64,000 bases of DNA from Vampirovibrio chlorellavorus (lineage in GTDB: Bacteria; Cyanobacteriota; Vampirovibrionia; Vampirovibrionales; Vampirovibrionaceae). How positions within the stretch are numbered: the stretch's first letter is position 1; each line of letters opens with the position of its first letter. Where the stretch lies: assembly GCA_001858525.1 (NCBI GenBank), contig LAPX01000005.1, positions 124,001 to 188,000 on the forward strand, given 5' to 3'. The translations under genes and the position numbers were made by a program. Below are positions 1,621-26,046 of the stretch, in pieces. The notes under the pieces are model-generated. The model was not told the origin of the DNA. It made no database searches and saw nothing but the letters and a program-made list of their open reading frames with translations.

Positions 1621-1885
1621 GGCGACCTCAATATTTCCAATATGTATATATAAAAACGATATAGCGTTGAGAATTGCCATCTTCATTTTCTTTCGGAGCT
1701 TTGATTTTCATCTGCAAAAAATGGCGCTCGTACCAGTGCCCCACTAGAGGATTCAAAAAGTTTGACGAGAGAGCCCTTAACATCCGCCTATCAAAAACGG
1801 GAATACTGAATATGGGGGAATCGGTTTCTTTTAGAACAAATTCATAATGACCACACGAAGGGAATATCTCTGTGGAGAAAATAGC

Positions 1886-3001
1886 GTGCGTAAAAGGTAT
1901 ACATTGCATTGGTTGACCTGTATCGCTTTGGCAAACAGCCTGTTGTTTTCAGCAGGGGTGCAGGCAGAATCCGAAAAAGCCGCCAACCTGACCGTTCAGG
2001 ATCAGGGAACGACTTTACCCGTTAGCCTGGTGAAAGGGCGTGTTACCAATCAGACTTCCCGTTATATTTTGGGTCCGGGCGATAAGATTGCCTTGAAAAT
2101 TCGGGATCTGGATCAATTTAATCAAAGTGTTACCATTCGCCCCGATGGGTACGCCAGCATCCACCCCTTTGGCGAACATCGGCTCTCCGGGACAGACTTG
2201 CAGAGTCTGCAAAACCTGTTGGTGGATGAATTTAAATTTTATTTGTTGAAGCCCCAAATTAGCATTAACGTGGAAGAAATGCGACCGGCCATGATTTATG
2301 TCAACGGGGGCGTAAAGCGACCGGGGACGTATCAGTTTAACCGTTCCACATCCGGTGCCACATCGGAGGTGGCGCCCGTTCAGGAAGGCATCGAGATGAC
2401 GCTGACCAATGTACTGGGCAAGGCCGGTGGTTTCACCCTGAACGCCGATGTCAGCAATATACAGGTGGTGCATGCTTCCACCGGGGTTACAGAAAACTTT
2501 AACCTGCTGGAATTCCTGTCCCATCAGGATAATCAGACAGATCCCCGACTCCTGCCGGAAGACAAGGTGATTGTCCCTGAAACGGAACACACCATGGATC
2601 AGGTCACCTTCAAGCTCATTAGCAGCTCCACCTACTTCCGGGAAAAATTTCCGGTGGTCGTGCTGGGTGCCGTTCAAAAACAAGGGGAAATCCAGCTGGA
2701 TCCCACCAACAACACCCTCAATGCGGCCATTGCCCAAGCTGGTGGATTCGTGGCGGGCTTGTCTAAACGAGATCTGGTTGTGGTGCAGCGTCCCGGCAAC
2801 AAAGGCGGTTTCAGTCGCTGGGTCGTGCAGCGGGATAAATCCAATCTGGAGCTGATGCCCGGTGATGTGGTTTACATTATGGACTCCAAAGTGGCCCGCA
2901 CCGAGCGGGGCGTGCGATTCCTGAGCGGCATTATTCAGCCCTATTTCCTGGGCGCCTCCGGTACCAACGTATTGCTCAACAGCCTGATCCAGTCACCCTA
3001 G
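1886..3001 (+). CDS. polysaccharide export protein, Wza-like (Poly_export/SLBB)
   Basis: This is the exporter that carries capsule or exopolysaccharide across the outer envelope. I chose the GTG at 1886 over the ATG at 1847: GGAG at 1874-1877 sits eight bases before it, and from there the protein begins with a clean signal peptide ending at AGVQA. Next comes the Poly_export domain, opening YILGPGDKIALKI, and then two SLBB-type repeats, one opening MIYVNGGVKRPGTYQF and one around VVVLGAVQKQGEIQL. No lipobox cysteine is visible after the signal peptide, unlike E. coli Wza. It is the first gene of the locus and 26 bases ahead of manC. Confidence 0.9.
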   Translation: MRKRYTLHWLTCIALANSLLFSAGVQAESEKAANLTVQDQGTTLPVSLVKGRVTNQTSRYILGPGDKIALKIRDLDQFNQSVTIRPDGYASIHPFGEHRLSGTDLQSLQNLLVDEFKFYLLKPQISINVEEMRPAMIYVNGGVKRPGTYQFNRSTSGATSEVAPVQEGIEMTLTNVLGKAGGFTLNADVSNIQVVHASTGVTENFNLLEFLSHQDNQTDPRLLPEDKVIVPETEHTMDQVTFKLISSSTYFREKFPVVVLGAVQKQGEIQLDPTNNTLNAAIAQAGGFVAGLSKRDLVVVQRPGNKGGFSRWVVQRDKSNLELMPGDVVYIMDSKVARTERGVRFLSGIIQPYFLGASGTNVLLNSLIQSP

Positions 3002-6074: not shown

Positions 6075-6547
6075 TGTTTCAAGGGCTATCGCTGCTGTGC
6101 CTGAGTCCCCTGTGTCTTGTGGGGAGTCTCACACTGGTGAGCCTTTTTGGGGTGTCCTCAGTTCTTTTTGTTTTTGCCTTACTGAAAGCCCGCCAACAAT
6201 CGCATCGTGGACATTGGTGGGGAAAGTTTGTGCTGGGACTGCACGGTGTACTCCAGCCGTTGTATATCACCCTGAGCAAGCATGCACCAGTGGGGGCCCG
6301 GCTCTTAGCGTTTGTCTATCAATGCCTGACATTGCCCTTTGGCATTGAGCTACCGCTGGCCTCTCAGGTGGGACGCGGATTGACACTAAGCCACACGGCT
6401 GGCATTGTGGTACATGCCCAGGCCCGCATTGGCGATTATTGCACCCTGCATTCCGGCGTGGTGCTGGGTAGTAAAAGACAACAAAACCCTCCCTCCATTA
6501 GTACTATTATTCGACCCAATTGCAGGCTGCAAAGGATCGAATCATGA
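6074..6547 (+). CDS. serine-acetyltransferase-like hexapeptide acyltransferase, C-terminally short
   Basis: The ATG overlaps the fcl stop (TAATG). The N-terminus is hydrophobic, with two likely membrane segments before residue 60. From about residue 92 the sequence follows the polysaccharide-linked serine-acetyltransferase pattern (LPFGIELPLASQVGRGLTLSH, then GIVVHAQARIGDYCTLHSGVVLG). After GSKRQQNPPSI, where more left-handed-helix turns (IGDNVxIGAGA repeats) are expected, the frame runs through an unrelated basic tail and stops at 157 residues. The missing last coils normally help form the acetyl-CoA site, so activity is doubtful. It is probably an eroded O-acetyltransferase. Confidence 0.65.
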   Translation: MFQGLSLLCLSPLCLVGSLTLVSLFGVSSVLFVFALLKARQQSHRGHWWGKFVLGLHGVLQPLYITLSKHAPVGARLLAFVYQCLTLPFGIELPLASQVGRGLTLSHTAGIVVHAQARIGDYCTLHSGVVLGSKRQQNPPSISTIIRPNCRLQRIES

Positions 6548-7818
6548 GTTTTCTGAAAGCGCTGTCTCCTAAATTTTTTATTCTGTTGGGCACGGCGGAT
6601 TCCGCCATGATTTCCGCCTCCGGGTTTCTGGTTAACCTGATGGCGGGTCGTTTCTTGAGCATAGAAGCTTACGGCCAATTTTTGATTTTATTTACCCTGG
6701 CCTCTTTCGCCCTTATTTTTCAATCGGCTCTGGTCTCCACCCCTTACAGCATCCTCTCCCAATCCGAAGAGAGTGATTTATCAGGTTGTTTCCGGGGGGC
6801 TTTGGGAATGACCTTACTACTGGGCCTGCTTTCTGCCTTAGGCGGGATCATCGCCTATTTATGCTATGGGGCAACCACCCCCTTTTTGCTGGGGGTCTTT
6901 GCGCTCTATATTTTTCTCAATCTGGTGCAGGATTTTTTCAGAAGGCATTATTACGCCACCCGTCAGGAGGCACAGGCCTTTTTGCTGGATTTCATCAGTT
7001 ACGGTGGACAGGTCATTGTCCTGTTTGCCCAACGATTCACCTTGCAACTGGAAAGCCTGTTCTTCTACCTGAGCATGACCTCATTGCTGGCCGTATTGAT
7101 CAGCACGGGTTTGAATCGTTCATTCAGAAACAGTCACCCGCACACCCCCATCCACCTTATATCGGAGTTCAAGACAACAGCATGCCAGAGTTGGCAACTG
7201 GGCCGATGGTTATTGTTTTCCAATGGGGTTTCATGGTTGGTCAGCCAGTTTTATGTGGTGGTACTGGGGTACACACAACCGGCTTCAGTCACGGCGCAAT
7301 TAGGAGCTGCCCGTTCTATTCCAGGGCTGTCTAATCCAGTCGTGATGGCTTACGAAAGCATGGCCCTGCCTCGCATGTCCAAGGCCTATCAAGGCAATCA
7401 ACCCCAGCTTTTTGGTGGTTACTTCAAGAAGACTCTTTTTCTGGGAAATATTCTTTTTTCACTCGTCGGTGTGGTTGTATTTTTGTTTCCCAACGAAGTG
7501 ATTCATTTGCTATACGGCAAATCGTTCGGAAATATTACGGCATTAGTCAGATTATTCAGCGTTTTGCCCATGCTCTGGCTTACATCAAAGTGTTTTTCGG
7601 TGGGCCTGATCGCCATGAAAGAAACCAGTTCACTGTTGCCGGTTTATGTGGGGGCGGCTTTTATAACCCTATTAACCGGAGGCTGGCTGATTTCTCAATA
7701 TGGCGTACTGGGGGCAGGATTCGGCTTTTTAATGAATGCCATTGTCTTAACCATTGGCTTCGGCGTTCAGTTCATCAAATTTTATCGAGAGTGGAAAATA
7801 AAGAGGCTTGCAGCATGA
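6544..7818 (+). CDS. Wzx-type polysaccharide flippase (MOP superfamily)
   Basis: The 424-residue protein is hydrophobic along its whole length, with about a dozen predicted membrane segments. It opens with the ASGFLVNLMAGRFLSIEAYGQF pattern typical of O-antigen flippases in pieces such as NLMAGRFLSIEAYGQF. It would move lipid-linked repeat units across the inner membrane. The ATG at 6544 overlaps the previous stop by four bases, with AAGGA at 6530-6534 upstream. The position in the operon, ahead of a run of glycosyltransferases, supports the role. Which glycan it carries is unknown. Confidence 0.85.
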   Translation: MSFLKALSPKFFILLGTADSAMISASGFLVNLMAGRFLSIEAYGQFLILFTLASFALIFQSALVSTPYSILSQSEESDLSGCFRGALGMTLLLGLLSALGGIIAYLCYGATTPFLLGVFALYIFLNLVQDFFRRHYYATRQEAQAFLLDFISYGGQVIVLFAQRFTLQLESLFFYLSMTSLLAVLISTGLNRSFRNSHPHTPIHLISEFKTTACQSWQLGRWLLFSNGVSWLVSQFYVVVLGYTQPASVTAQLGAARSIPGLSNPVVMAYESMALPRMSKAYQGNQPQLFGGYFKKTLFLGNILFSLVGVVVFLFPNEVIHLLYGKSFGNITALVRLFSVLPMLWLTSKCFSVGLIAMKETSSLLPVYVGAAFITLLTGGWLISQYGVLGAGFGFLMNAIVLTIGFGVQFIKFYREWKIKRLAA

Positions 7819-11546: not shown

Positions 11547-12769
11547 TGAAAATTTTAATTTCCGCATACGCCTGTGAACCGAATAAAGGCAGCGAACCCG
11601 GTGTCGGATGGCATTGGAGTCTGGAGGCCGCAGCACAGGGTCATGAGGTCTGGGTGCTGACGCGAGCGAATAATCAAAAAGCCATTGAATCTGCGTTTGT
11701 GGATAAAAAGCAACCTGAAAACTTGCACTTTGTTTATTACGATTGCCCTGCCTGGATATTAAAACTCAAGCGTTTAGCCGGGGCCACACAGCTTTATTAT
11801 TTTTGCTGGCAGCTTGGGATTTTTAAAATCGCCCAACACCTCCACCAGCTCATCCAGTTTGATCTGGTTCACCATGTGACCTTTGTTTCAGTGCGTCAGC
11901 CCAGCTTTTTAGGCCTTTTGGGGCTTCCCTTTATATTTGGGCCAGTGGCCGGTGGAGAAGCAACCCCCATGCCCTTAAGGAAAAGTTTTCCTTGGCGGGG
12001 CCAATTAAAAGATGGCGTGCGTGATTTACTCAATTGCCTGATTCGCTTTGATCCGTTGATGCACCTGACTTTTCAGAAAGCTTGCAAAATTTACGTCACC
12101 TCCCAGCAGACCCTGGACTTTATTCCACGGAACTATCAAGGCAAGTGTGCAGTGCAACTGGCCATCGGCACAGAACAACAACCACCCTCCAATACCGCAT
12201 TGCCGATCCACTTTGCTGATTCTGTTTTTCGGGTGCTGTATGTGGGAAACCTCCTGTATCTTAAAGGCATTCATTTGGCCCTGAAAGCCTTTGAGGACTT
12301 TCACAAAAACTATCCCCACAGCCAATTTACCATTTTGGGCAGTGGCCCGGATGAACAATGGTTGAAACAATTGGCGCAAACTCTGCAGTGCCAGGAGTCC
12401 ATTGAGTGGGTTCCCCGCCTGCCGCAAGATCAATTGCCTACCGTTTATCAACAACACGATGTTCTGCTTTTTCCCAGCTTACATGATTCCGGTGGAATGG
12501 TGGTTCTTGAGAGCTTCAGCCATGGTTTGCCCGCTATTTGCCTGGACATTGGCGGACCGGGACTATTGGTGGATGAAACCTGCGGTCAAGTCATTCACAC
12601 CCAGCGTCAAACCGAAGATCGTGTCGTTGAACGCCTTGCGGAGGCGCTTCTGGAAATGGCAAAAACACCTGACTTACTGGCCCAATACAAGCAGGGCGCA
12701 TTGGCCCGAGCCAATTTTTTCACGTGGAAAAAGCACGTTCATAAAATATACGCCGATCTCCCGATTTGA
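11546..12769 (+). CDS. glycosyltransferase family 4 (GT-B)
   Basis: The N-terminus MKILISAYACEPNKGSEPGV is a typical retaining GT4 opening with the glycine-rich acceptor loop. The donor half starts at FRVLYVGNLLYLKGIHLAL near residue 228. It ends in the nucleotide-sugar-binding EX7E-like block around FPSLHDSGGMVVLESFSHG, with both glutamate positions filled by D and E. The start shares TGATG with the preceding gene. Its 407 residues are normal for the family. It is followed by the first real gap (243 bases) in the operon since fcl. Confidence 0.9.
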   Translation: MKILISAYACEPNKGSEPGVGWHWSLEAAAQGHEVWVLTRANNQKAIESAFVDKKQPENLHFVYYDCPAWILKLKRLAGATQLYYFCWQLGIFKIAQHLHQLIQFDLVHHVTFVSVRQPSFLGLLGLPFIFGPVAGGEATPMPLRKSFPWRGQLKDGVRDLLNCLIRFDPLMHLTFQKACKIYVTSQQTLDFIPRNYQGKCAVQLAIGTEQQPPSNTALPIHFADSVFRVLYVGNLLYLKGIHLALKAFEDFHKNYPHSQFTILGSGPDEQWLKQLAQTLQCQESIEWVPRLPQDQLPTVYQQHDVLLFPSLHDSGGMVVLESFSHGLPAICLDIGGPGLLVDETCGQVIHTQRQTEDRVVERLAEALLEMAKTPDLLAQYKQGALARANFFTWKKHVHKIYADLPI

Positions 12770-13012
12770 TCGTTCCAAAATACTTTACCTGTAGGAGTTT
12801 CATTCCGATAGGGGCACCTTATGATGGTATGGTCAGACACTGGTGATTGTTGTTTCCGGGAAGAGAGTCTAGTGAAATGCAGGTCCGTCCATTTTCAATT
12901 CGTCCTGAGCAAGACCTGTATGGATGCTTTGTGTGGCATGGGCTGGATGACAGGACGCGTCATCAAAACGAGCTTTACCTATGCCTGGTAACGGTTTGAG
13001 GCACCCTGTCGT

Positions 13013-13981
13013 ATGACCGATACCCTGTTTCTCAAGCTGATCGCCATCCTGCTGATTACCAACTCACATCTGGATGCGCTGTATCCGATTAAAGGCCTTG
13101 CCTCCGGGGGAGCTTTTGGCAACGCCCTGTTTTTTATGCTCTCTGGATTGGGACTGGCCATTAGCACGCATGCCAATAGGATGGGCAGCATTCTGGAGTG
13201 GTTCAAATACCGCATGAGTCGTATCTTCCCCTCGGTCTGGCTGGTGGTGTTTGTTTTCGCGGTAATCCTTCAAGCCCACTGGAAATATTGGCAGTGGCAG
13301 GATTATGTGCACCATTTTATTTTCCCCACCCGCTACTGGTTTTTGTCCGCTTTAATGTGCTTTTACCTGCTGCTCTACCCCTTGTTTCGGTTTGAGTGGC
13401 GCCGATGGGCTTTGCCCATAAGCATGCTGCTGATTATTCCCTATTTTGGGTTTTACTTTACGGTGGTTGATCTCTCTACCTTCAGCATTGAAAACAATGG
13501 TTTGTTCAAATGGATTTTTTACTTTCAGGTGGTGTTGCTGGGCGTCTGGATTGCTCCCCACTATCAGAGTTGGAAAACCAACGGGCATCAGACTACTCCT
13601 AAAGAAATCGGTGCATTGCTGCTGTGTCTGATGGGTTACGTGGGGTTGAAATTTTTGACGAATAAGCCCGAATATGCCATTTTGCAATTTCTGGTTCAAT
13701 GGATTACGCTACCGCTGCTTTACTTCTCCTTGCGTTGCGCCTTCCACCCCACAATCGAAAAATATTTCAAGGGAGGCCTTCCCCAATTCGTGCTGACGGC
13801 CATTGCTTCCAGCACATTAGAGATTTACTTACTGCAAGCTGACTTCTATACGCTGGCCTGGTTGAATCAACTTGTGTTTCCGCTCAATGTAGCGTTGTTC
13901 TTTGCCTGTGTTCTGCCCTTGGCTTACGGCCTTCAGCGGCTCACGCACCCTCTGCATCACTGGCTGAAAAAGCGCTCATGA
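13013..13981 (+). CDS. membrane O-acyltransferase, acyltransferase-3 family
   Basis: The protein has 322 residues and about ten membrane segments. It opens LKLIAILLITNSHLDALYP, the family's first helix with the conserved catalytic-type His (SHLD). FFMLSGLGLAIS and KYRMSRIFPSVWLV follow, as expected for acyltransferase 3. It probably adds acetyl groups to the polysaccharide from the cytoplasmic acetyl-CoA pool. It is somewhat shorter than many family members. A 4-base ATGA overlap joins it to the next GT4. Confidence 0.85.
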   Translation: MTDTLFLKLIAILLITNSHLDALYPIKGLASGGAFGNALFFMLSGLGLAISTHANRMGSILEWFKYRMSRIFPSVWLVVFVFAVILQAHWKYWQWQDYVHHFIFPTRYWFLSALMCFYLLLYPLFRFEWRRWALPISMLLIIPYFGFYFTVVDLSTFSIENNGLFKWIFYFQVVLLGVWIAPHYQSWKTNGHQTTPKEIGALLLCLMGYVGLKFLTNKPEYAILQFLVQWITLPLLYFSLRCAFHPTIEKYFKGGLPQFVLTAIASSTLEIYLLQADFYTLAWLNQLVFPLNVALFFACVLPLAYGLQRLTHPLHHWLKKRS

Positions 13982-15156
13982 AAATTCTCCTGTTGCACAA
14001 TTATTACCAACAAAAGGGCGGTGAAGACGCTGTCTTTGAGGCCGAAGCAGAATTGCTGCGTCAACAGGGACAAACCGTGGAAACCCTGATTTTTCAGAAC
14101 AAAGACATCAATGGCCCGCTTGACTCTTTGAAAGCAGGCCTCAACAGTTTTTACAATGTGGGATCGGCCAAGCGACTTAAACAGGTGTTGCAACGCTTTC
14201 AACCCGATGTTTTACATGTGCACAATACCTTCCCATTAGCGTCTCCCGCCATTTTCTATACGGCTCAAAAGGCCACGGTTCCCATCGTGATGACCTTGCA
14301 TAATTACAGATTGCTTTGCGCCAACGCCTTACTCTTTGAAAACAATCAGCCCTGTGAACGTTGCGTTCAAGCGCCCATCGCCTGGGAGGGCATTTTAAGA
14401 GGCTGTTACCGCGGCTCCAGACTTCAAAGCGCCGCATTGGCCACCATGACCACCACCCATCGACTGATGGGCACCTGGCACCACACAATTGATGCGTTTA
14501 TCACGCTGACCCAGTTTGCCCAGTCCCGATTCACCCAGTCGGCCTTGGCCCTGCCCCCTGAAAAAATGCATATCAAGCCGAATTTCATTCCCGATCCGGG
14601 CATGATACAGTCCTCCGATCGTCAAGCTCATTTTTTGTTTGTGGGCCGGCTTTCACCGGAAAAGGGAATTTCACTCCTACTGGATGCGGCGAAATCGGGG
14701 GTGTTCCAGTTGAAAGTCATTGGAGCTGGTCCTCTGGCCGAGGACGTTCAGGCTGCTGCCCAAGCGCATCCCAATATTGAGTATCTGGGGTTTCAGGATC
14801 ATTCGGTCATTTTGCAGGCCATGCGCCAGAGTCGGGCGCTGGTGTTGCCTTCGCTCTGCTATGAAGGATTTCCGGTTACACTGTTAGAGGCCTTGGCCAC
14901 TGGTACGCCCATTATTTGCGCAAAAACAGGCGGACTGCCTGAAATAATTCCCCATGAACAAGCCGGACTGTTGTTTGAGTCCGGCTCCTCCGAGGATCTG
15001 TTGAAACAAATCCATCGGCTTCTTGCCGACAACGCCCTGCATGAACGATTGGGCCAACAAGGGCGAGAGCACTACCTGAACCACTTCACCCCAGCGCATA
15101 ATTATCAGGCCCTCATGCGCATTTATCAGCACGTTATGGGAGTCCCCCATGAGTAA
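13978..15156 (+). CDS. glycosyltransferase family 4 (GT-B)
   Basis: The protein begins MKILLLHNYYQQKGGEDAVF, the acceptor-domain start seen in many capsule GT4 enzymes, and HVHNTFPLASPAIF follows near residue 80. The donor domain starts at FLFVGRLSPEKGISLLLDAA and holds the catalytic block LPSLCYEGFPVTLLEALATG. It is a second, separate GT4 from the one at 11546, with different acceptor loops. It overlaps the acyltransferase before it and the WecG-type gene after it, which places it in the same translated operon. Confidence 0.9.
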   Translation: MKILLLHNYYQQKGGEDAVFEAEAELLRQQGQTVETLIFQNKDINGPLDSLKAGLNSFYNVGSAKRLKQVLQRFQPDVLHVHNTFPLASPAIFYTAQKATVPIVMTLHNYRLLCANALLFENNQPCERCVQAPIAWEGILRGCYRGSRLQSAALATMTTTHRLMGTWHHTIDAFITLTQFAQSRFTQSALALPPEKMHIKPNFIPDPGMIQSSDRQAHFLFVGRLSPEKGISLLLDAAKSGVFQLKVIGAGPLAEDVQAAAQAHPNIEYLGFQDHSVILQAMRQSRALVLPSLCYEGFPVTLLEALATGTPIICAKTGGLPEIIPHEQAGLLFESGSSEDLLKQIHRLLADNALHERLGQQGREHYLNHFTPAHNYQALMRIYQHVMGVPHE

Positions 15157-15925
15157 ATACAATTTAATCGGCTCTCTGATCAGCAACGAACCTTATCCCA
15201 TTCTGCTGGAGCGGATCATTCAACAGGCCCAGTCCCATGCCTCGGAATACGTTTGTCTGAGCAATGTGCATATGCTGATTGAATCTTATCGAGATAGTCA
15301 GTTTCAGGCCATTCTGAACGGGGCCAGCATGGCTTTACCTGATGGCAAGCCGGTGGCCGTTTTGATGAACTGGCTATATGGCTCTAAACAACAACGCATG
15401 GCTGGCCCCGATTTAATGCTCGATTTATTCCAACAGGCCAATGATCGGCAGTTGGCCATTTATTTTTATGGCAGCACCCCCGAGGTATTGGCGGCCATGC
15501 AGGTCAAGCTGAGGCAAGAGTATCCCAGCCTGATAATCGCAGGCATGCATTCCCCGCCTTTTAGACCCCTGAGCGATGCGGAAATGGCCGCGGATGTGGA
15601 CGCCATCTGCCAGTCGGGGGCGCATCTGGTTATGGTCGGCTTGGGCTGCCCCAAGCAGGAACGCTGGATGGCTCAAAACCAGGAGAAGATTCCTGCGGTG
15701 ATGTTGGGACTGGGTGCCGCGTTTCCGTTTTACACCGGAGACCTGAAACGCGCGCCACGCTGGATGCAACAGTCGGGGCTGGAATGGTTTTACCGGCTTT
15801 ACAAAGAACCTAATAGATTATTCAAGCGATATCTTACAACCAACGTACAGTTTGTTTGTTTGGCTTCCATGCAATTTTTTCGGATTAAGTGTTTAAATGA
15901 GTCTGAAAGCAGCTGCTTTAAATGA
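15149..15925 (+). CDS. WecG/TagA/CpsF-type glycosyltransferase (GT26)
   Basis: The protein has 258 residues with the family's marks in order: YVCLSNVHMLIES, ALPDGKPV (the PDG near residue 66), AGPDLM, YFYGSTPEV, and the nucleotide-binding GLGCPKQERWM near residue 168. GLGAAFPFYTGDLKRAP and the C-terminal WFYRLYKEPNRLFKRY tail, thought to bind the membrane, close it. It usually adds the second sugar to an undecaprenyl-linked primer, which fits a locus ending in a priming transferase. It overlaps the previous gene by eight bases and is the last of the tightly packed genes. Confidence 0.93.
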   Translation: MSKYNLIGSLISNEPYPILLERIIQQAQSHASEYVCLSNVHMLIESYRDSQFQAILNGASMALPDGKPVAVLMNWLYGSKQQRMAGPDLMLDLFQQANDRQLAIYFYGSTPEVLAAMQVKLRQEYPSLIIAGMHSPPFRPLSDAEMAADVDAICQSGAHLVMVGLGCPKQERWMAQNQEKIPAVMLGLGAAFPFYTGDLKRAPRWMQQSGLEWFYRLYKEPNRLFKRYLTTNVQFVCLASMQFFRIKCLNESESSCFK

Positions 15926-16110: not shown

Positions 16111-18288
16111 GTGTCCTTTGAGCATTCAAGAGAAGATGAAGGCTCTTTGGTGATTGATATTCACCAAATTGGAGTAGCCTTTCGGAGTAAGTGGCAATGG
16201 GCTGTAGCGGTCCCCGTCGTTTTTGCTTTGATGGCCGCGCTTTATGGGTATTTGATTTTTGAAGAGTCTTACCATTCTTCAGCAAAACTCCTTCTGGATG
16301 TAACGGATGCGCCCAAGTTTGTGTCCAATTTGGATACGGACGAGGCCTTTCTGAAAGGCAGTGGCTCGGAAAGTAGTCCTTACAAAAACCAGGAAGAATT
16401 GTTAAAAAGTCAGCTCATTTTCAATCGAGTGGCTGATACGCTCAAAAAGGATCACATCCGGGTCAAGTATAAAAAGCCGGTTGAACTGTCTGAAAAAGTA
16501 TTTTCAGCCGAGCATATCAAGAATACCAACTTTATTCGCATTGCTGCCACGGCAAACAAGCCTGATACGGCCCAAACGCTGGCCCAACTTTACATGCAAT
16601 CCTATCTGGATTTAATGAATGAGATTTCCTATACTCCTTTGAAACAAAAGCGGAAGCTGTTTGAAACTGAAGTGGCCCGTGCTGAGAATGAACTAGCAGG
16701 GATCAATCGCAAGATTGAACTGTATCAGGAAACGTATGGCATCCTAGATATTAATATCGAAAGTCAGAATCAAATTCGTCAGTTGGTGAATCTGGACAGC
16801 CAAAAGAAAGCCATTCAGGCTGATTTAGCTGAAAAACAGGCGGAAGTCAGCCGGATTCGCAAGCAGCTTAAATTAAAGCGGGGCGATTTTGATGACGTGG
16901 TTCAGGCTGTGGCCAAAGGTCAGGATAGTACGCTGGTTGTATTGCAGGAGAAGCTACAGGATCTGCAGAAGGATTATGACAGCAAGGCTTTGATTTACGC
17001 GCCCACCAATCCTGATATGGTTCAGCTCCAGCGAAAGTTGGACGTGTTAAAAGCACAAATTATCGATCAGCAGATTTTGACGGTGGGTCATGGTTTACCT
17101 CCGAGAACCGGGCAGATCAAAGACAGTGTGCGTACCGATATGGTGAACCGGTTGGCCTTGGCCGATTCTGAAAGTGCCGCTTTGCAGAACAAGTTGGGCA
17201 CCCTTTACATGCAATATGATGAGCTGAAGGGCTCATTGAAAGGGCTGCCCCAGCAGCAACTAGAATATGCCCGATTGAGTCTGGACAAGAAAAACCGCGA
17301 GGATCTTCTGACCCGGCTGAAGCAAAATCTGGCGGAAGCGCAAATGCAAGAAGCTTCTGTGCGCAAGCGTTTAATGGTCATCGATCCGCCCAATCTGCCT
17401 GAAAAACCGGTGGCCCCTTTACGTTGGCATATTATTTTAGGGGCAGCCGCTGCGGGCTTACTTCTGGCTTCTTCTGCGATAGTGGGGCAATCACTCATCA
17501 ATCAGAAATATTTTCGCCCGGAATATATTGAAAAAGTTCTGGATGCCCCTGTTTTGGGATGTATTCCATGGTTAACGGATGATCAGTGGCGATTCCTGCG
17601 CCATAAAAAACGCCTGGAAGTGACTGCCACCGATGTAGATCCCGGTGTTATTAATGCCTATCAGGACTTGGCGCTCAACCTAAAGGTGCGACGGAACGTA
17701 TTGCAAAAAAATACGGCGGTCTTGTCTCAATTACTGACGGAAAAGGGCCATGCCGTGGTTCTGGCCAATCTGGCCTTCTGTTTGGCACAAGGCGGGGAAC
17801 GCGTGATTTTGATCGATGCGGATTTGCGGAATCCTGGCTTGCACGAGGCCTTTAATCACGCTCTGGATTATGAGCGAGGTTTGCCGGAGCTGATTAACGC
17901 TATTTCTGAGCTGATGCATCGCAAGAAGGATGTGCAGGTTGAGGATATTTTGCAGCTGGTCAATGGTTCTGTAACCCCATCCGGCATTCATCCACAGTTG
18001 GAATATCTGAATGCAGGTCTCTCCCTGAATAATACGTTTGAATTTCTTAATGCCAAGAGTTTTGATATCCTGCTGAATGTTTTAAAGGCCAGCTATGACT
18101 GGGTACTGGTGAGTGCTCCCCCCATTTTAAGTCATCCGGATTGTGCTGTGTTACTGGGCTATGTGGATGGTTTATTGATATTGAGTGATCTGGAAACCGA
18201 GGAATTGCAGATGGCTGCGGTTCAAAGGAAAGTAGAGCGCATTGGTTCTATGACCTATGGCGCTATTTTGCGGAACTTATCCGTTTAA
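16111..18288 (+). CDS. Wzz/Wzc-like polysaccharide co-polymerase with a degenerate kinase domain
   Basis: The protein has 725 residues. A GTG start is favoured by GGAAG at 16097-16101. The first membrane helix lies near residues 30-50. A Wzz domain and long coiled coils (residues about 180-280 and 360-430) follow, and the second helix is near 440-460. The C-terminal domain aligns with tyrosine-kinase Wzc, and Walker A' is kept (VILIDADLRNPGL). Walker A is not: where GEGKST is expected, it reads TEKGHAVV, so the ATP-binding Lys and Thr are gone. No C-terminal tyrosine cluster exists (it ends ILRNLSV). It probably sets chain length or scaffolds export without kinase activity. Confidence 0.85.
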   Translation: MSFEHSREDEGSLVIDIHQIGVAFRSKWQWAVAVPVVFALMAALYGYLIFEESYHSSAKLLLDVTDAPKFVSNLDTDEAFLKGSGSESSPYKNQEELLKSQLIFNRVADTLKKDHIRVKYKKPVELSEKVFSAEHIKNTNFIRIAATANKPDTAQTLAQLYMQSYLDLMNEISYTPLKQKRKLFETEVARAENELAGINRKIELYQETYGILDINIESQNQIRQLVNLDSQKKAIQADLAEKQAEVSRIRKQLKLKRGDFDDVVQAVAKGQDSTLVVLQEKLQDLQKDYDSKALIYAPTNPDMVQLQRKLDVLKAQIIDQQILTVGHGLPPRTGQIKDSVRTDMVNRLALADSESAALQNKLGTLYMQYDELKGSLKGLPQQQLEYARLSLDKKNREDLLTRLKQNLAEAQMQEASVRKRLMVIDPPNLPEKPVAPLRWHIILGAAAAGLLLASSAIVGQSLINQKYFRPEYIEKVLDAPVLGCIPWLTDDQWRFLRHKKRLEVTATDVDPGVINAYQDLALNLKVRRNVLQKNTAVLSQLLTEKGHAVVLANLAFCLAQGGERVILIDADLRNPGLHEAFNHALDYERGLPELINAISELMHRKKDVQVEDILQLVNGSVTPSGIHPQLEYLNAGLSLNNTFEFLNAKSFDILLNVLKASYDWVLVSAPPILSHPDCAVLLGYVDGLLILSDLETEELQMAAVQRKVERIGSMTYGAILRNLSV

Positions 18289-18469
18289 TAACAGGGTGAG
18301 TCAGGGAATTTTGGGGTTGAGGGGGTAAGTGTATTTGGCTAGTGATGCTTTCTGGCATTTTTCGACAGCATTTTGATGGGTATGAAAAGAATTTAGTCTT
18401 TTATTAAAGTTTTGGTTGAACCTGACGAAGAGAATTTTACGTAGAAATTGGGAATGTTCATTTTGGCTT

Positions 18470-19579
18470 ATGATGAATCAAAATAGCAATCGTCGAATTC
18501 ATGATGTGCGCTCTGGCAGTCTTCATCGGCAAGGACTGGAAGCAGCACCGAACCTGCAGATTCTCGAGCAGGGCCTGTTTACAGAGGCCAAACCACTCCC
18601 CACACGGGACGTTATTATTAAGGCCGTTCTAATCGACGTATTTCTTCTCACCACAGGTTTTTCTGTGATTATGAGCCTGATGGGCTTTCCGGGCAAGCAT
18701 ATACCGGTTTTGCTGGTTTTAAACCTCGTCATTGGTATGATTTGCGCCCAGCAGTCGGATTATTACAATCCGGCAACCAGTCGTCACAGCTTGGGCAAGG
18801 CGGCTTTCATTACCTCCATTCTGTTTTTGGTCAACCTTGTTGTTTTCCCTTTGTTAGGGGCCTCGTTTCACGTTTGGGGTGCCGCCGTGTTGTTTGGATT
18901 TTTGGCTGTGAAAGCCATTGTGTCGGCATTTTGTCACTACGAGTCGGGCACTCTTTATCGGTTGAATCAATCTGCCACAATTTTCTACTCAATAGAAAAA
19001 GTCATTAAGCGTGGTTTTGATCTGTTCTGGGTCAGTGGTGGCTTGATTTGCCTCTCTCCGCTTTTGGCAACTGTAGCGTTGTTACTGTGGCTGGAAGGCA
19101 AAGGCTCGCCACTTTTTTGTCAGACCCGTATTGGGCTGGGTGAGCAACCGTTTAAAATGTATAAATTCCGCTCTATGGTGAAAAATGCCGAATTGATGAC
19201 CCGTAGTAACAATACGGTTCTGTTCAAGCGACAGGACGATCCTCGCATTACGCCCATGGGCCATATTATTCGTAAGTGGAGTATTGACGAGCTGCCTCAA
19301 TTGTTGAACGTGATTACCGGCGATATGTCTCTGGTGGGCCCTCGTCCGCCCATCCCTTCGGAATACGAATTAATGAACACCTATCACTGCCGGAAGTTTG
19401 AAGCCGTGCCGGGCTTGACCGGCTTGTGGCAGATTGTGGGGCGGGTTAAAAATCAGCGAGATTTTAATTCAGTGGCTGCCTATGACGTTTTTTACATTGA
19501 GAACTGGTGCCTGATTGAGGACTTAAAAATTCTGTTCAAGACTGTGCCGGTTGTTTTGCTTCATCGGGGCGCCTGCTGA
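18470..19579 (+). CDS. undecaprenyl-phosphate sugar-1-phosphate transferase (WcaJ-type priming enzyme)
   Basis: The start is uncertain: ATG at 18470 or 18473, or TTG at 18416. The first 170 residues hold about four membrane segments. The bacterial sugar-transferase domain then opens at KRGFDLFWVSGGLICLSPLL, with the re-entrant helix pattern. FCQTRIGLG, YKFRSMV, WSIDELPQLLNV, MSLVGPRPP and PGLTGLWQ follow in the usual order. It starts repeat-unit assembly by moving a hexose-phosphate onto the lipid carrier. It is the last gene of the polysaccharide locus, 181 bases after the co-polymerase. Confidence 0.92.
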   Translation: MMNQNSNRRIHDVRSGSLHRQGLEAAPNLQILEQGLFTEAKPLPTRDVIIKAVLIDVFLLTTGFSVIMSLMGFPGKHIPVLLVLNLVIGMICAQQSDYYNPATSRHSLGKAAFITSILFLVNLVVFPLLGASFHVWGAAVLFGFLAVKAIVSAFCHYESGTLYRLNQSATIFYSIEKVIKRGFDLFWVSGGLICLSPLLATVALLLWLEGKGSPLFCQTRIGLGEQPFKMYKFRSMVKNAELMTRSNNTVLFKRQDDPRITPMGHIIRKWSIDELPQLLNVITGDMSLVGPRPPIPSEYELMNTYHCRKFEAVPGLTGLWQIVGRVKNQRDFNSVAAYDVFYIENWCLIEDLKILFKTVPVVLLHRGAC

Positions 19580-21376: not shown

Positions 21377-21406
21377 GGACATTACTTGTCAATCCGCTAA
21401 GTGACT

Positions 21407-23194
21407 ATGGCCTCACATCATCACGCTGAAAATGGATTTCATTCTTCCGCGGGAGAGCACATCAGTCCTTTCCAGCGACTGCGTGTTCTCATCAGAGAAG
21501 ACAAAAAAGACCTGCTTATCCTGGTTCTTTACACCACGTTGGCGGGCCTTCTTACGCTGGCTGTTCCATTGACTGCCCAGGCTCTGGTGAATACCATTGC
21601 GGCCGGTGTCTTTTTGCAACCGGTGGTGGTACTGACCACCTTGCTGTTTATTGGCATGTTGTTTATCGGCTTACTGAGGATTTCCCAATTTTTTTTGGTG
21701 GAAGTGCTGCAGCAGCGGGTATTTGCCCGTGTTGCCCTCCGGCTGGCGGGCCAGGTGCCTTTTGTTCAGCACAAGGCTCTGATGAGTGATTATCCGCCAG
21801 AGTTGATGAATCGCTTCTTTGATATTATCCAGACCCAGAAGGCCATGTCCAAATTACTGATGGACGGGCCTGCCACCGTGTTGCAGATTCTGGTTGGCTT
21901 GATACTGATGGCTGTCTACAGTCCTATTCTGCTGGGTTTCGACTTATTTATCATCTTCTTTCTGGCCTTTACGGCCTTTGTACTGGGTCGTAACGCGGTT
22001 AATACCAGCATTGATGAATCCGTACAGAAGTACCGGGTGGCTGGATGGTTACAAGAATTGGCCCGATGCCAGGTCAGCTTTAAGGTGGATGGCATTCCGG
22101 GTTACCTGTTTCGGAAAGCTGATGAGCAGGTGGTTGACTATATTAAGGCTCGTCATTCTCACTTTCGGATTTTGTTTCGTCAGGTGGCGGCCAATTACTT
22201 TTTTCAGGCCCTGGCCAGTGCGGGCATTTTGGGGATTGGTGGCTGGCTGGTCATTAATCGACAATTGACATTGGGCCAGCTGGTGGCTTCCGAGTTGGTT
22301 ATTCTGATTCTGATTTCAGCCATGGATAAATTGGTGATGATGTTTCAGGATTGGTATGACCTGCTTACTGCGGTCGAAAAAATTGGACACCTGACTGACC
22401 TACCGCTGGAACGTGAAGGCGGAACTTTGTTGCCGCGCCAGGAAGACGGGGCTCATGTTGTTTGTCAGGATCTGTACTTTGATTACACTCATCCCGACAC
22501 TAGGATTCTGAAGGGCCTGAGCTTATCCCTGAAGCCGGGAGAGATGGTCTGCCTGGTTGGAGCCAGTGGTGCCGGTAAATCGACCTTGGCGGAAATTTTA
22601 TGCGGCTTACTGGAGCCCAAGTCGGGTGTGGTTCGAATCAACGGGTTTGATGTTCGGAATCTGGATCTGAACAGTTTACGGCAGGTGGTGGCTCTGGTGA
22701 GCGATGGCAACGAGATTTTTGACGGCACCGTCGAAGAAAACATTGTGGTAGGCAGACCTCACGTTCGCCCAGAGTACATTCACTGGGCCTTGGAAATAAC
22801 ACAGTTGACGGATGAGATCATGGCTTTGCCAGATGGGCTACAAACCAGTTTGATCAGTGCTGGCAGGAATTTGTCCCGAGGGCAAATGCAGCGCTTGATG
22901 ATTGCCCGTGCCATTGTGGATCGGCCCAATTTACTCATTCTGGATGAAGCGTTCATCGGCATTGATGAACGCACCAAACTGCAGATTCTGGATGCCCTGT
23001 TAGATCCTGCAAATCGCTGGACAGTGATTGGTATTTCACACGATGCAGATGTGGTGATTCGGGCGGATCATATTATGGTGCTGGCCGATGGGGTAATTGC
23101 TGAATCCGCCTCGCTCAATGCCTTGTCCTTACAGCCCAACAGTCGCTTTTCGGGGCTGTTCCCTAATTTGCTTTCCAGTCTGGGAGGGCGATAG
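21407..23194 (+). CDS. ABC transporter, fused membrane and ATPase domains (type I secretion-like)
   Basis: The protein has 595 residues. About six membrane segments (residues 35-330) precede an ATPase domain with Walker A GASGAGKST near 385, signature LSRGQMQRLMIARA near 490, Walker B LLILDEAF and the switch His in GISHD. No C39 peptidase domain is present, so it does not trim double-glycine leaders. It starts at ATG 21407, with a GTG six bases upstream as the alternative. The next two genes code for a membrane-fusion protein and a TolC-family protein. Together they form a complete tripartite exporter with unknown cargo. Confidence 0.88.
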   Translation: MASHHHAENGFHSSAGEHISPFQRLRVLIREDKKDLLILVLYTTLAGLLTLAVPLTAQALVNTIAAGVFLQPVVVLTTLLFIGMLFIGLLRISQFFLVEVLQQRVFARVALRLAGQVPFVQHKALMSDYPPELMNRFFDIIQTQKAMSKLLMDGPATVLQILVGLILMAVYSPILLGFDLFIIFFLAFTAFVLGRNAVNTSIDESVQKYRVAGWLQELARCQVSFKVDGIPGYLFRKADEQVVDYIKARHSHFRILFRQVAANYFFQALASAGILGIGGWLVINRQLTLGQLVASELVILILISAMDKLVMMFQDWYDLLTAVEKIGHLTDLPLEREGGTLLPRQEDGAHVVCQDLYFDYTHPDTRILKGLSLSLKPGEMVCLVGASGAGKSTLAEILCGLLEPKSGVVRINGFDVRNLDLNSLRQVVALVSDGNEIFDGTVEENIVVGRPHVRPEYIHWALEITQLTDEIMALPDGLQTSLISAGRNLSRGQMQRLMIARAIVDRPNLLILDEAFIGIDERTKLQILDALLDPANRWTVIGISHDADVVIRADHIMVLADGVIAESASLNALSLQPNSRFSGLFPNLLSSLGGR

Positions 23195-23197
23195 TCA

Positions 23198-24592
23198 ATG
23201 CGTATTGGGTTTATGAACTCCAAATCCCAACAACAACTGGTCTCTCCCCGCTTTTTTACCTGGTTGGTTTTATGGACCTCATTAATGTTGCTGTTTGGGG
23301 TGGTGGCCCTTATTTTTGTGCCCTGGCAGCAAACGGTTACTGGTACTGGCAAAGTGACCGTGTTCTCTCCCATGCAGCGTCCCCAGGCTATTGAAGCCCA
23401 AATTTCCGGACGGTTAAGGCAATGGTACGTGCTGGAAGGGCAAACCGTCAAAGCAGGGCAGATCATTGCCGATTTGGCCGATATTGACCCTAAGTTTCTG
23501 GATGTCAATCAGATTAAGACGCTGGAAGCCCAAAGGACAGCATTGGAAGCCCGTAAGTCTGCCGCCGAGACCCGAATTGTTGCTTTAGAAAGTCAAATGA
23601 GCGCCTTGGGTCAATCCCGGCAATCGGCCATTCCCGGTGCGGGCGAAAAAATAGGACAGAATCAGGATCGTATTCTGGCAGCTCAGCAGGGGCTCACCGC
23701 TGCCCGGCAGAATCTGGATACGGCGCTGTTTAATTACAGCCGGGTCAAGGATCTTTACCAGAAAGGGCTGCGCTCCAAACGGGATTTTGAATTGACGGAA
23801 CTAGATAAGGTTCGGGCAGAAACTGGCGTCCAGCAGGCCGAAGCTCAACTTCGCGTTTCTCAGCGGGATGTGAAGGTGGCTCAGTTTGATCAAGGCAAAG
23901 TAACTGGCGACACAGCGGCGGCGCTGGCCAATGTGGCTGCGTCCCTGGCCTCGGCGCAGGAAACCATTGCCTCCACCGTCAGCGATATTGCCAAGTTGAA
24001 TGTGGATATCCAGAATCTGCGGCAACGTACCGGGCAACGTCAGATTAAAGCGCCTGTCACGGGTAAAGTGGTTCGCCTATTACAGGTAGGCACTGGAGAA
24101 ACCGTGGCCGAAGGCGAGGTTTTGGCCGTTGTGGTCCCGGAAACCAAGGATCAGGCCGTAGAACTCTACGTTTCTGACTGGGATGTGCCGCTGGTTTCTG
24201 AAGGGCGCTTGGTGCGTCTGCAATTTGCCGGATGGCCGGCCATTCAGTTTTCGGGTTGGCCCTCAATTGCCAGTGGGACTTTTGGCGGCCGGGTGGCCGT
24301 AGTGGATGCCGTTGACGATGGTCGGGGGCGTTATCGTATTTTGGTTAAACCGGATTTGAAGTCCATTGCCTCCGGTAGAGATGAACCCTGGCCTAGCGGT
24401 AACTATTTGCGTCCGGGCACTGAGGCCACCGGCTGGATTTTGCTGGATACGGTTCCTTTGGGCTATGAACTGTGGCGTCAATTTAACGCTTTCCCGCCCA
24501 CCCTGAAAGAAAAGCCGGATTCCGGCAAGGACGGAGACTATAACGCCGACTCTGGGAAGGAAAAGCCGGTAAAACGGAAAGTGAAAAAATGA
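23198..24592 (+). CDS. HlyD-type membrane-fusion (periplasmic adaptor) protein
   Basis: The protein has 464 residues. One N-terminal anchor helix (about residues 24-46) is followed by the first lipoyl half (ISGRLRQWYVLEGQTVKAGQ). A long helical hairpin rich in Gln, Ala and Arg covers about residues 105-270. The second lipoyl half is KAPVTGKVVRLLQVGTGETV, and a beta-barrel region follows. The last 30 residues are very charged with repeated DSGK and EKP patches. GGAGG at 23183-23187 supports the ATG at 23198. It bridges the ABC protein and the TolC-like channel. Confidence 0.9.
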   Translation: MRIGFMNSKSQQQLVSPRFFTWLVLWTSLMLLFGVVALIFVPWQQTVTGTGKVTVFSPMQRPQAIEAQISGRLRQWYVLEGQTVKAGQIIADLADIDPKFLDVNQIKTLEAQRTALEARKSAAETRIVALESQMSALGQSRQSAIPGAGEKIGQNQDRILAAQQGLTAARQNLDTALFNYSRVKDLYQKGLRSKRDFELTELDKVRAETGVQQAEAQLRVSQRDVKVAQFDQGKVTGDTAAALANVAASLASAQETIASTVSDIAKLNVDIQNLRQRTGQRQIKAPVTGKVVRLLQVGTGETVAEGEVLAVVVPETKDQAVELYVSDWDVPLVSEGRLVRLQFAGWPAIQFSGWPSIASGTFGGRVAVVDAVDDGRGRYRILVKPDLKSIASGRDEPWPSGNYLRPGTEATGWILLDTVPLGYELWRQFNAFPPTLKEKPDSGKDGDYNADSGKEKPVKRKVKK

Positions 24593-26046
24593 GATTTTGT
24601 CTCTTCAGCTGGATGCTTTCCCTGTTGTGCCTGCTGCTTCCAGCTGCAGTGCTAGCTGAACCATTGCTTGAAGTGGAACTCAAAGAGCTGAAAACGCAAA
24701 ATGAGCAGTCCAAAGAGCAGGGATTAACCCTGGACAGGGTACTGGATCAGGTACGCCAGAACCATCCCAAGCTGTTTAGCGCGGATTTGGAGCGTCGCAT
24801 TGCCGGGGCCAAATTACTGGAGAAACAAGGGGCTTTTGACCCGGGTATCTCCCTGGAGACGGATTATTTGCGTTACAACGATTTCAGCAAACGGGGCAAA
24901 ATAAGTAAAACGTTTGACAACGATTTGTCATTCAACTGGCTAACGCGTTCCGGCCTGAAAGTGATGACCGGCGGGCGCTATAACACTGGAGATGTTAAGC
25001 CTCCTTTGTACCCTACCGGAGACTCCGGGGAGTACTATATTGGTGCCAAGCTGCCGTTGTTGCGGGGCTTTCGGATGAACGACAAGGTGGCCGCCGAGAT
25101 GCAGGCCGAAATTGGCATTCCAATGGCCGATGCAGCTTACACAGAGACCCGGCTTTCTGTTTTGCTGCAAGCTGCCTACGCTTACTGGAATTGGGCGGTA
25201 GCCGATCGCAAAGTGACTGTGGCCAAGAATATTTTGAGTCTGGCCGAAGTGCGTTGCAAGGCCATTGAGGAACGGGTTCGCCAGGGGGATTTACCCAGAA
25301 TTGACGCGATAGAGGCGTGCCAGGAAGTGCAGCGTCGCCAGGGAAATTTGTATAAATCCACCCGAGAGTTCGAGAAAAATGTGTTCAAGCTGTCTCGCTA
25401 CTTGTGGGAACCCGGTGGAAATCCCAGTCCATTACCCAAGGCCGCGGAAATACCCGTTCAATTGCCCGAGCCACTGGCTTTTAGCGAGGAAGACTGGATG
25501 GAAGGGCGCAAGGCCGCGCTGGAAAAGCGACCGGAGCTGAAAGAGTTAAATCTTCAAAAAGAAATGACCGAGGTGGATTTGAAATCTGCCAAAAACCAAC
25601 GCCTGCCTGTTCTGGATTTGTTTGCCACCCCTGGTTATGACACGGGGGGATCTTCCATTGGCCCCAGCATCAAGGCGGGTGTGGTTTTAACTGTCCCCTT
25701 AAGGCAGCGCACCGCCAAAGGGCTCATAGCAGCAGCCCAGTTCAAGATTCAAAAACTGGATTTGGAGCAGCGGCTTTTATTGCAACAGGTTTTGCTAGAG
25801 GTGGATGATGCCGTTTCAGCCATTAATGCCGCCTACCAGCAGTATCTGGCTGCCCGGCAGGAGTATGCGTTAGCCCGTGAGCTGGAGCAAGGTGAACGGG
25901 ATCGCTTTGATTACGGGGATAGTACTTTGTTTCTGGTCAACCAGCGGGAGCGTTTGACCTTTGAGGCGGCTGTAAAGCTTTTGGATTTGGAAGCAGAGTA
26001 CCATCAGGCCAAAGTTAATTTTCAGGCCGTCACCGGGCAACTGTAA
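24589..26046 (+). CDS. TolC-family outer-membrane efflux protein
   Basis: The ATG overlaps the previous stop (ATGA). A signal peptide ends near ALPAAVLA at about residue 23. Paired helical repeats typical of the outer-membrane efflux domain follow: LDRVLDQVRQNHPKL at the start of the first, LNLQKEMTEVDLKSAKNQRLPVLDL at the start of the second. The GNPS-containing strands lie between them. Its 485 residues are normal for the family. It supplies the outer-membrane exit for the exporter encoded just upstream. Confidence 0.9.
   Translation: MRFCLFSWMLSLLCLLLPAAVLAEPLLEVELKELKTQNEQSKEQGLTLDRVLDQVRQNHPKLFSADLERRIAGAKLLEKQGAFDPGISLETDYLRYNDFSKRGKISKTFDNDLSFNWLTRSGLKVMTGGRYNTGDVKPPLYPTGDSGEYYIGAKLPLLRGFRMNDKVAAEMQAEIGIPMADAAYTETRLSVLLQAAYAYWNWAVADRKVTVAKNILSLAEVRCKAIEERVRQGDLPRIDAIEACQEVQRRQGNLYKSTREFEKNVFKLSRYLWEPGGNPSPLPKAAEIPVQLPEPLAFSEEDWMEGRKAALEKRPELKELNLQKEMTEVDLKSAKNQRLPVLDLFATPGYDTGGSSIGPSIKAGVVLTVPLRQRTAKGLIAAAQFKIQKLDLEQRLLLQQVLLEVDDAVSAINAAYQQYLAARQEYALARELEQGERDRFDYGDSTLFLVNQRERLTFEAAVKLLDLEAEYHQAKVNFQAVTGQL

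Follow-up and report, generated by a model that had tools for sequence, protein, structure and literature searches.

The window analysed here is a stretch of 64,000 nucleotides from the genome of Vampirovibrio chlorellavorus, which belongs to the non-photosynthetic relatives of cyanobacteria. It contains an open reading frame of 725 aa with a GTG start, the translation of which includes ...TAVLSQLLTEKGHAVVLANLAFCLAQGGERVILIDADLRNPG... and which encodes a Wzc-like polysaccharide co-polymerase (PCP). The genes and features considered are the following:

1847..3001, + strand: Wza-type outer-membrane polysaccharide export (OPX) protein, from domain matches (Poly_export and SLBB)
6520..7818, + strand: probable Wzx-type flippase (seven predicted TM helices, no Pfam match)
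15149..15925, + strand: WecG/TagA/CpsF glycosyltransferase, next gene upstream of the PCP gene (PF03808, 2.9e-60)
16111..18288, + strand: Wzc-like PCP with a C-terminal BY-pseudokinase domain (Pfam Wzz, AAA_31 and GNVR; NCBIfam TIGR01007)
16153..16440, + strand: Wzz N-terminal region of the PCP, aa 15-110, including TM1 at aa 32-50 (Pfam, TM prediction)
17257..17487, + strand: GNVR region, aa 383-458, merging into TM2 at aa 441-459 (Pfam, TM prediction)
17518..18285, + strand: cytoplasmic BY-kinase-fold domain, aa 470-725 (AlphaFold2, Foldseek)
17656..17682, + strand: helix-2 stretch AYQDLALNL, replacing the EX2RX2R oligomerisation motif (alignment; role of the motif from PMC3795738)
17734..17760, + strand: degenerate Walker A, LTEKGHAVV, aa 542-550, in which EKGHAV (17740-17757) stands for GEGKST (translation, alignments)
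17809..17829, + strand: retained Walker A', LIDADLR, aa 567-573 (translation, alignment)
18031..18051, + strand: NTFEFLN, at the site of PPNPxELL in BY-kinases and invariant in four orthologs (alignment)
18103..18123, + strand: degenerate Walker B, VLVSAPP, aa 665-671, compared with VIIDTPP (Asp replaced by Ser; alignment)
18416..19579, + strand: polyprenyl-phosphate sugar transferase (PGT), next gene downstream of the PCP gene (PF02397, 2.8e-59)

This is the genomic setting of a PCP-2a protein, with genes for an OPX protein, a flippase (assigned as Wzx from its TM pattern only), a PGT, and glycosyltransferases. The PGT also matched TIGR03025 (6e-75), below the cut-off of that model. In a related V. 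chlorellavorus MAG (L109), the PCP gene is likewise flanked by wecG upstream and the PGT gene downstream, with one acyltransferase gene on the opposite strand between wecG and the PCP gene. The same MAG carries a Wzy_C gene (L109:3134-4546), and none was found at the corresponding positions of the window (12769-13013). A weak Wzy_C match, approximately 12 kb upstream of the window, and another OPX gene lie in a region 11-14 kb upstream of it (C24:110601-112750).

The 725-aa protein has the makeup of a PCP-2a or Wzc-type co-polymerase: a Wzz domain, a GNVR segment, two predicted TM helices, and a cytoplasmic C-terminal domain. The Wzz match was above the Pfam cut-off (1.6e-07), the GNVR match was slightly below it (1.2e-05, 25.5 bits against a cut-off of 27.7), and AAA_31 was matched at 2.2e-06 and 28 bits. 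Against TIGR01007, which describes the polysaccharide biosynthesis tyrosine autokinases, the C-terminal domain reached 76.6 bits, below the cut-off of 108.05. An AlphaFold2 model of this domain, made from an alignment of 13 rows, had a pLDDT of 91.7 and a pTM of 0.90, and its best solved match in Foldseek was the kinase domain of E. coli Wzc (3la6, TM 0.81). The order of the domains, the 2 TM helices, and the fold of the kinase domain are thus as in Wzc, a PCP-2a tyrosine autokinase. Wzc has intact Walker motifs, an EX2RX2R motif, a Tyr tail, and phosphorylation cycling (PMC8285477), however, and in these respects the window protein differs from it.

A sequence-only reading of the locus had described a Wzc-like protein with EKGHAV at the site of GEGKST, an intact IDADLR strand, and no Tyr cluster at its C-terminus. 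Each of these observations was borne out, by translation and, for the P-loop, by alignment to CapB and to class relatives. In the profile alignment to CapB (4jlv, 3bfv), the LTEKGHAVV stretch falls on the kinase P-loop, in a single register that also covers NLA, the segment AQxG, and LIDADLR, and a MAFFT alignment with class relatives bearing EGKST gave the same P-loop register. With the three landmarks NLA, AQxG, and LIDADLR aligned, the last of them beyond the loop, we consider this register secure. The P-loop Lys is replaced by His, and the Ser/Thr by Ala/Val. An alternative or shifted P-loop ([AG]x4GK[ST]) was sought across the whole 725-aa protein, and none was found. The last 30 residues hold one Tyr and no cluster. 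The earlier list of losses was right but short, as it overlooked those of the Walker B Asp and of EX2RX2R, a motif that contributes roughly half of the interface within the CapB and Wzc octamers (PMC3795738). In all, the protein lacks Walker A (GxxGK[ST]), Walker B (hhhD), the Tyr cluster, and EX2RX2R and stays below the TIGR01007 cut-off; Walker A' (hhhDxDxR) is the sole BY-kinase sequence motif that it still has. A predicted BY-kinase fold from which the catalytic residues and the Tyr tail are missing is characteristic of BY pseudokinases of the EcpK and HfsB kind, and the motif content agrees with the pseudokinase assignment that had been made earlier.

The same change is found in close relatives, as the sequence-only reading had suggested checking: orthologs at 46, 37, and 34% identity in three other genomes, the nearest named ones being V. 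chlorellavorus and Vampirovibrio sp. MAGs, also lack the P-loop. As these orthologs share the loss, the change in the window protein is neither due to chance nor a base error. Across the four orthologs (the window protein and these three), the loop residues differ in every case (EKGHAV, PSGCSV, DPSESF, and ANEQAN), with no Gly in common. Mean identity in the P-loop window is 0.17 compared with 0.44 for the domain, which places the P-loop in the bottom 4% of 9-aa windows, while the AYQxLALNL stretch of helix 2 stands at 0.73 and NTFEFLN at 1.00. On the basis of these differences in 4 sequences, it looks as if the nucleotide site, rather than the domain, has been released from selection, with the fold and some surfaces still held. 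The Walker B Asp is present in the three closest orthologs and missing in the window copy.

The genome containing the window (3.03 Mb, 99.6% complete) encodes five PCP-like proteins, of which three carry a dead domain and two have no kinase domain. The former are the window copy, a degenerate copy on C14 (GGKRSL), and a degenerate copy on C25 in which Wzz, GNVR, pseudokinase, and WecG parts form one chain of approximately 990 aa (L113:6574-9540; PF03808, 1.3e-66). The latter lie on C1 and C3, and each of the four PCP genes outside the window adjoins an OPX gene. The protein on C3 (L115:8130-10826) is an 898-aa PCP with a long C-terminal extension without a Pfam match in place of the kinase domain. 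No catalytic BY-kinase was recognised in this genome, nor any protein above the TIGR01007 cut-off. Its AAA_31-related proteins with a P-loop are MinD, CpaE-like, Mrp, and ParA-like proteins and more distant P-loop enzymes, while the Wzc-like ones are degenerate. Two LMW-PTP homologs are encoded as well (G000:C27:204236-204673 and G000:C13:70689-71075), members of a family that is common across the order.

The fusion of PCP, pseudokinase, and WecG was found in five genomes of the genus, namely this one and four congeners (L117, L118, L119, and L014), and was not seen outside the genus among the other genomes of the phylum that were searched. Two apparent fusions in photosynthetic cyanobacteria were rejected, since stop codons separate a PCP-kinase gene from a wecG gene that follows it.

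To describe the spread of the loss, the order Vampirovibrionales was sampled with 18 genomes from three families. Wherever a PCP-attached domain covers the P-loop stretch in the alignment (21 of 21 rows), the P-loop Lys is missing, most copies still having the Walker A' Asp, and none of the 18 genomes contained a protein above the TIGR01007 cut-off. For the whole class, this figure was 11 of 240 genomes. Outside the order, class relatives keep GKS in all 8 copies of family f8, where the copies inspected also keep a Tyr-rich tail, and in 4 of 5 copies of family f4. In a tree of the domain, the copies that lost the Lys group together (3 changes compared with 10.8 in shuffles), in a topology with long and weakly supported deep branches. 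The P-loop Lys is missing from at least one f4 copy as well. Half-degenerate P-loops, with Gly kept and Lys gone, were seen in L054 (G014:C33; GSGTTF) and L130 (G076:C111, family f4; GDGATM). Since the latter copy belongs to another family, its sequence suggests that the class has probably seen more than one loss of the Lys. Two genomes of family f2 (L098 and L099) have stand-alone domains with a displaced GKS and no Tyr tail. These BY-kinase-like proteins (L120:6671-7465, GAGKSSS; L121:3329-4111, FQGKSAS) are encoded directly downstream of a PGT gene and are possible intermediates in the loss.

In the standard model, PCP-2 proteins depend for their function on repeated rounds of tyrosine phosphorylation. 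The octamer of Wzc comes apart when its tail is phosphorylated, and export ceases; the K540M variant, from which the P-loop Lys is removed, forms a stable octamer (PMC8285477). Without the P-loop, the tail, and EX2RX2R, the window protein is therefore unable to run this cycle. EcpK of Myxococcus xanthus and HfsB of Caulobacter are BY pseudokinases that have been proposed to act as phosphorylation-independent scaffolds with a PCP-2 (PMC12004946). Like the window protein, they have a BY-kinase fold without catalytic motifs or a Tyr tail, and they work with PCP-2 proteins in the Wzx/Wzy pathway. They are stand-alone proteins, however, whereas the domain in the window is joined to the PCP, and EcpK has also lost the Walker A' that the window protein retains. 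Single chains of PCP-2 and BY pseudokinase have been described in Sinorhizobium (SMc01795) and Vibrio vulnificus (VV1_2305) (Cuthbertson 2009, via PMC12004946). Going by that description, these resemble the window protein in carrying a PCP and a dead BY-kinase domain in one chain, while the case in the Vampirovibrionales spans an order without BY-kinases above the cut-off in 18 genomes and has kept Walker A'. The PCP-pseudokinase type is thus already known, and what is new here is an unusually lineage-wide example, marked by loss throughout an order and by the fusion of a paralog with WecG.

We consider it likely that the 725-aa protein is a PCP-2a-type co-polymerase that has retained the predicted fold and lost both the phospho-switch and catalysis, with the domain serving as a phosphorylation-independent scaffold; the pseudokinase part of this model is more certain than the scaffold part. 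The domain would form a cytoplasmic base that organises the PCP with the OPX protein (Wza), the flippase, and glycan-building enzymes by protein-protein contacts. Assembly and chain length would then not depend on tyrosine phosphorylation, in line with the proposals made for EcpK and HfsB, and a regulation of polymer length by structure, suggested in the sequence-only reading, is plausible. As the P-loop has been lost in all export-linked domains found in the order while the domain is folded and conserved, the lineage offers a natural experiment on non-phosphorylating roles, and the active-looking f8 copies allow gain and loss to be compared inside one class.

Some observations do not fit easily with a pseudokinase scaffold. 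S. aureus CapB1, at one time described as a pseudokinase, later proved to be active (PMC6441080 compared with PMC3795738), although CapB1 has active-site residues. Furthermore, the Walker A' Asp found in most copies and the Walker B Asp of the three closest orthologs would be needless in a fully released site. The retained Walker A' Asp could indicate that nucleotide still serves the domain as a regulatory ligand, bound in an unusual mode that does without the P-loop Lys. Atypical ParA-like proteins with degenerate P-loops, such as TadZ, are known and provide a precedent, and the fusion orthologs have KPxxGGAYHLAQC in common at the loop. These are 60-81% identical overall, however, so that conservation of their loop means little. 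The different nucleotide mode put forward earlier found no support in the four-ortholog alignment, where the loop is different in each sequence, without a common Gly, and its place among the 4% least conserved windows fits a loss; we regard such binding as improbable.

The LMW-PTP homologs also speak against the scaffold reading, as they leave room for tyrosine phosphorylation or for another use of that fold. Together with the f2 stand-alone domains bearing a displaced GKS, they could point to a heteromeric pair in which the dead copy regulates, or is regulated by, an active kinase in trans. The f2 copies lack a Tyr tail, however, and the genome containing the window, nearly complete, has neither such a stand-alone copy nor a protein above the TIGR01007 cut-off. 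The catalytic Wzc partner that the sequence-only reading had named as a possible refutation was thus not found there, and for this genome the pairing, which we hold to be very unlikely, is largely refuted. Simple decay or a sequencing error might be suspected where several motifs are gone together, yet the open frame is full-length, the fold is predicted with high confidence, the C-terminal domain is 43-51% identical to that of two orthologs, and the same loss recurs lineage-wide in independent assemblies. Conservation of the domain across genera rules this explanation out, leaving it next to no probability.

In a more specific version of the scaffold model, the dead domain would act as a docking hub, holding WecG/TagA and PGT enzymes at the co-polymerase and so coupling initiation to export. 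The C25 paralog and its counterparts in four congeners, with WecG on the same chain, suggest that the domain offers the enzymes of lipid-linked glycan synthesis a surface to dock on, as do the placement of wecG and the PGT gene on either side of the window PCP, kept in L109, and that of the f2 domains directly after a PGT gene. Similarly, in a cyanobacterial family (f19), the gene of a PCP with an intact GDGKST precedes a WecG-type gene that is separate from it, and the PGT CapM is a target of CapAB in S. aureus (PMC6441080). However, wecG, PGT, and PCP genes share biosynthesis clusters anyway, and no glycan cluster was recognised around the orthologs in L110 and L111. For the soluble pseudokinase-WecG part of the fusion, AlphaFold gave a poor model (pLDDT 63, pTM 0.46), in which no packing could be seen. 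We therefore put the docking hub forward tentatively, as a doubtful special case. Equally speculative is the wider proposal that the whole order gave up the control of export by tyrosine kinases, with PCPs that have a dead domain or none, and that the dead domain became a docking platform, made explicit in the WecG fusion. The fusion does make the scaffold idea directly testable.

Further downstream in the window, an 890-aa protein without a convincing family match is encoded at 29890-32562. Between this gene and the PCP locus, genes for an ABC exporter, an HlyD-type protein, and a TolC-type protein lie in a row (21401-26046), and in another family (L123), homologs of these exporter genes at 59% identity occur close to a PCP gene.
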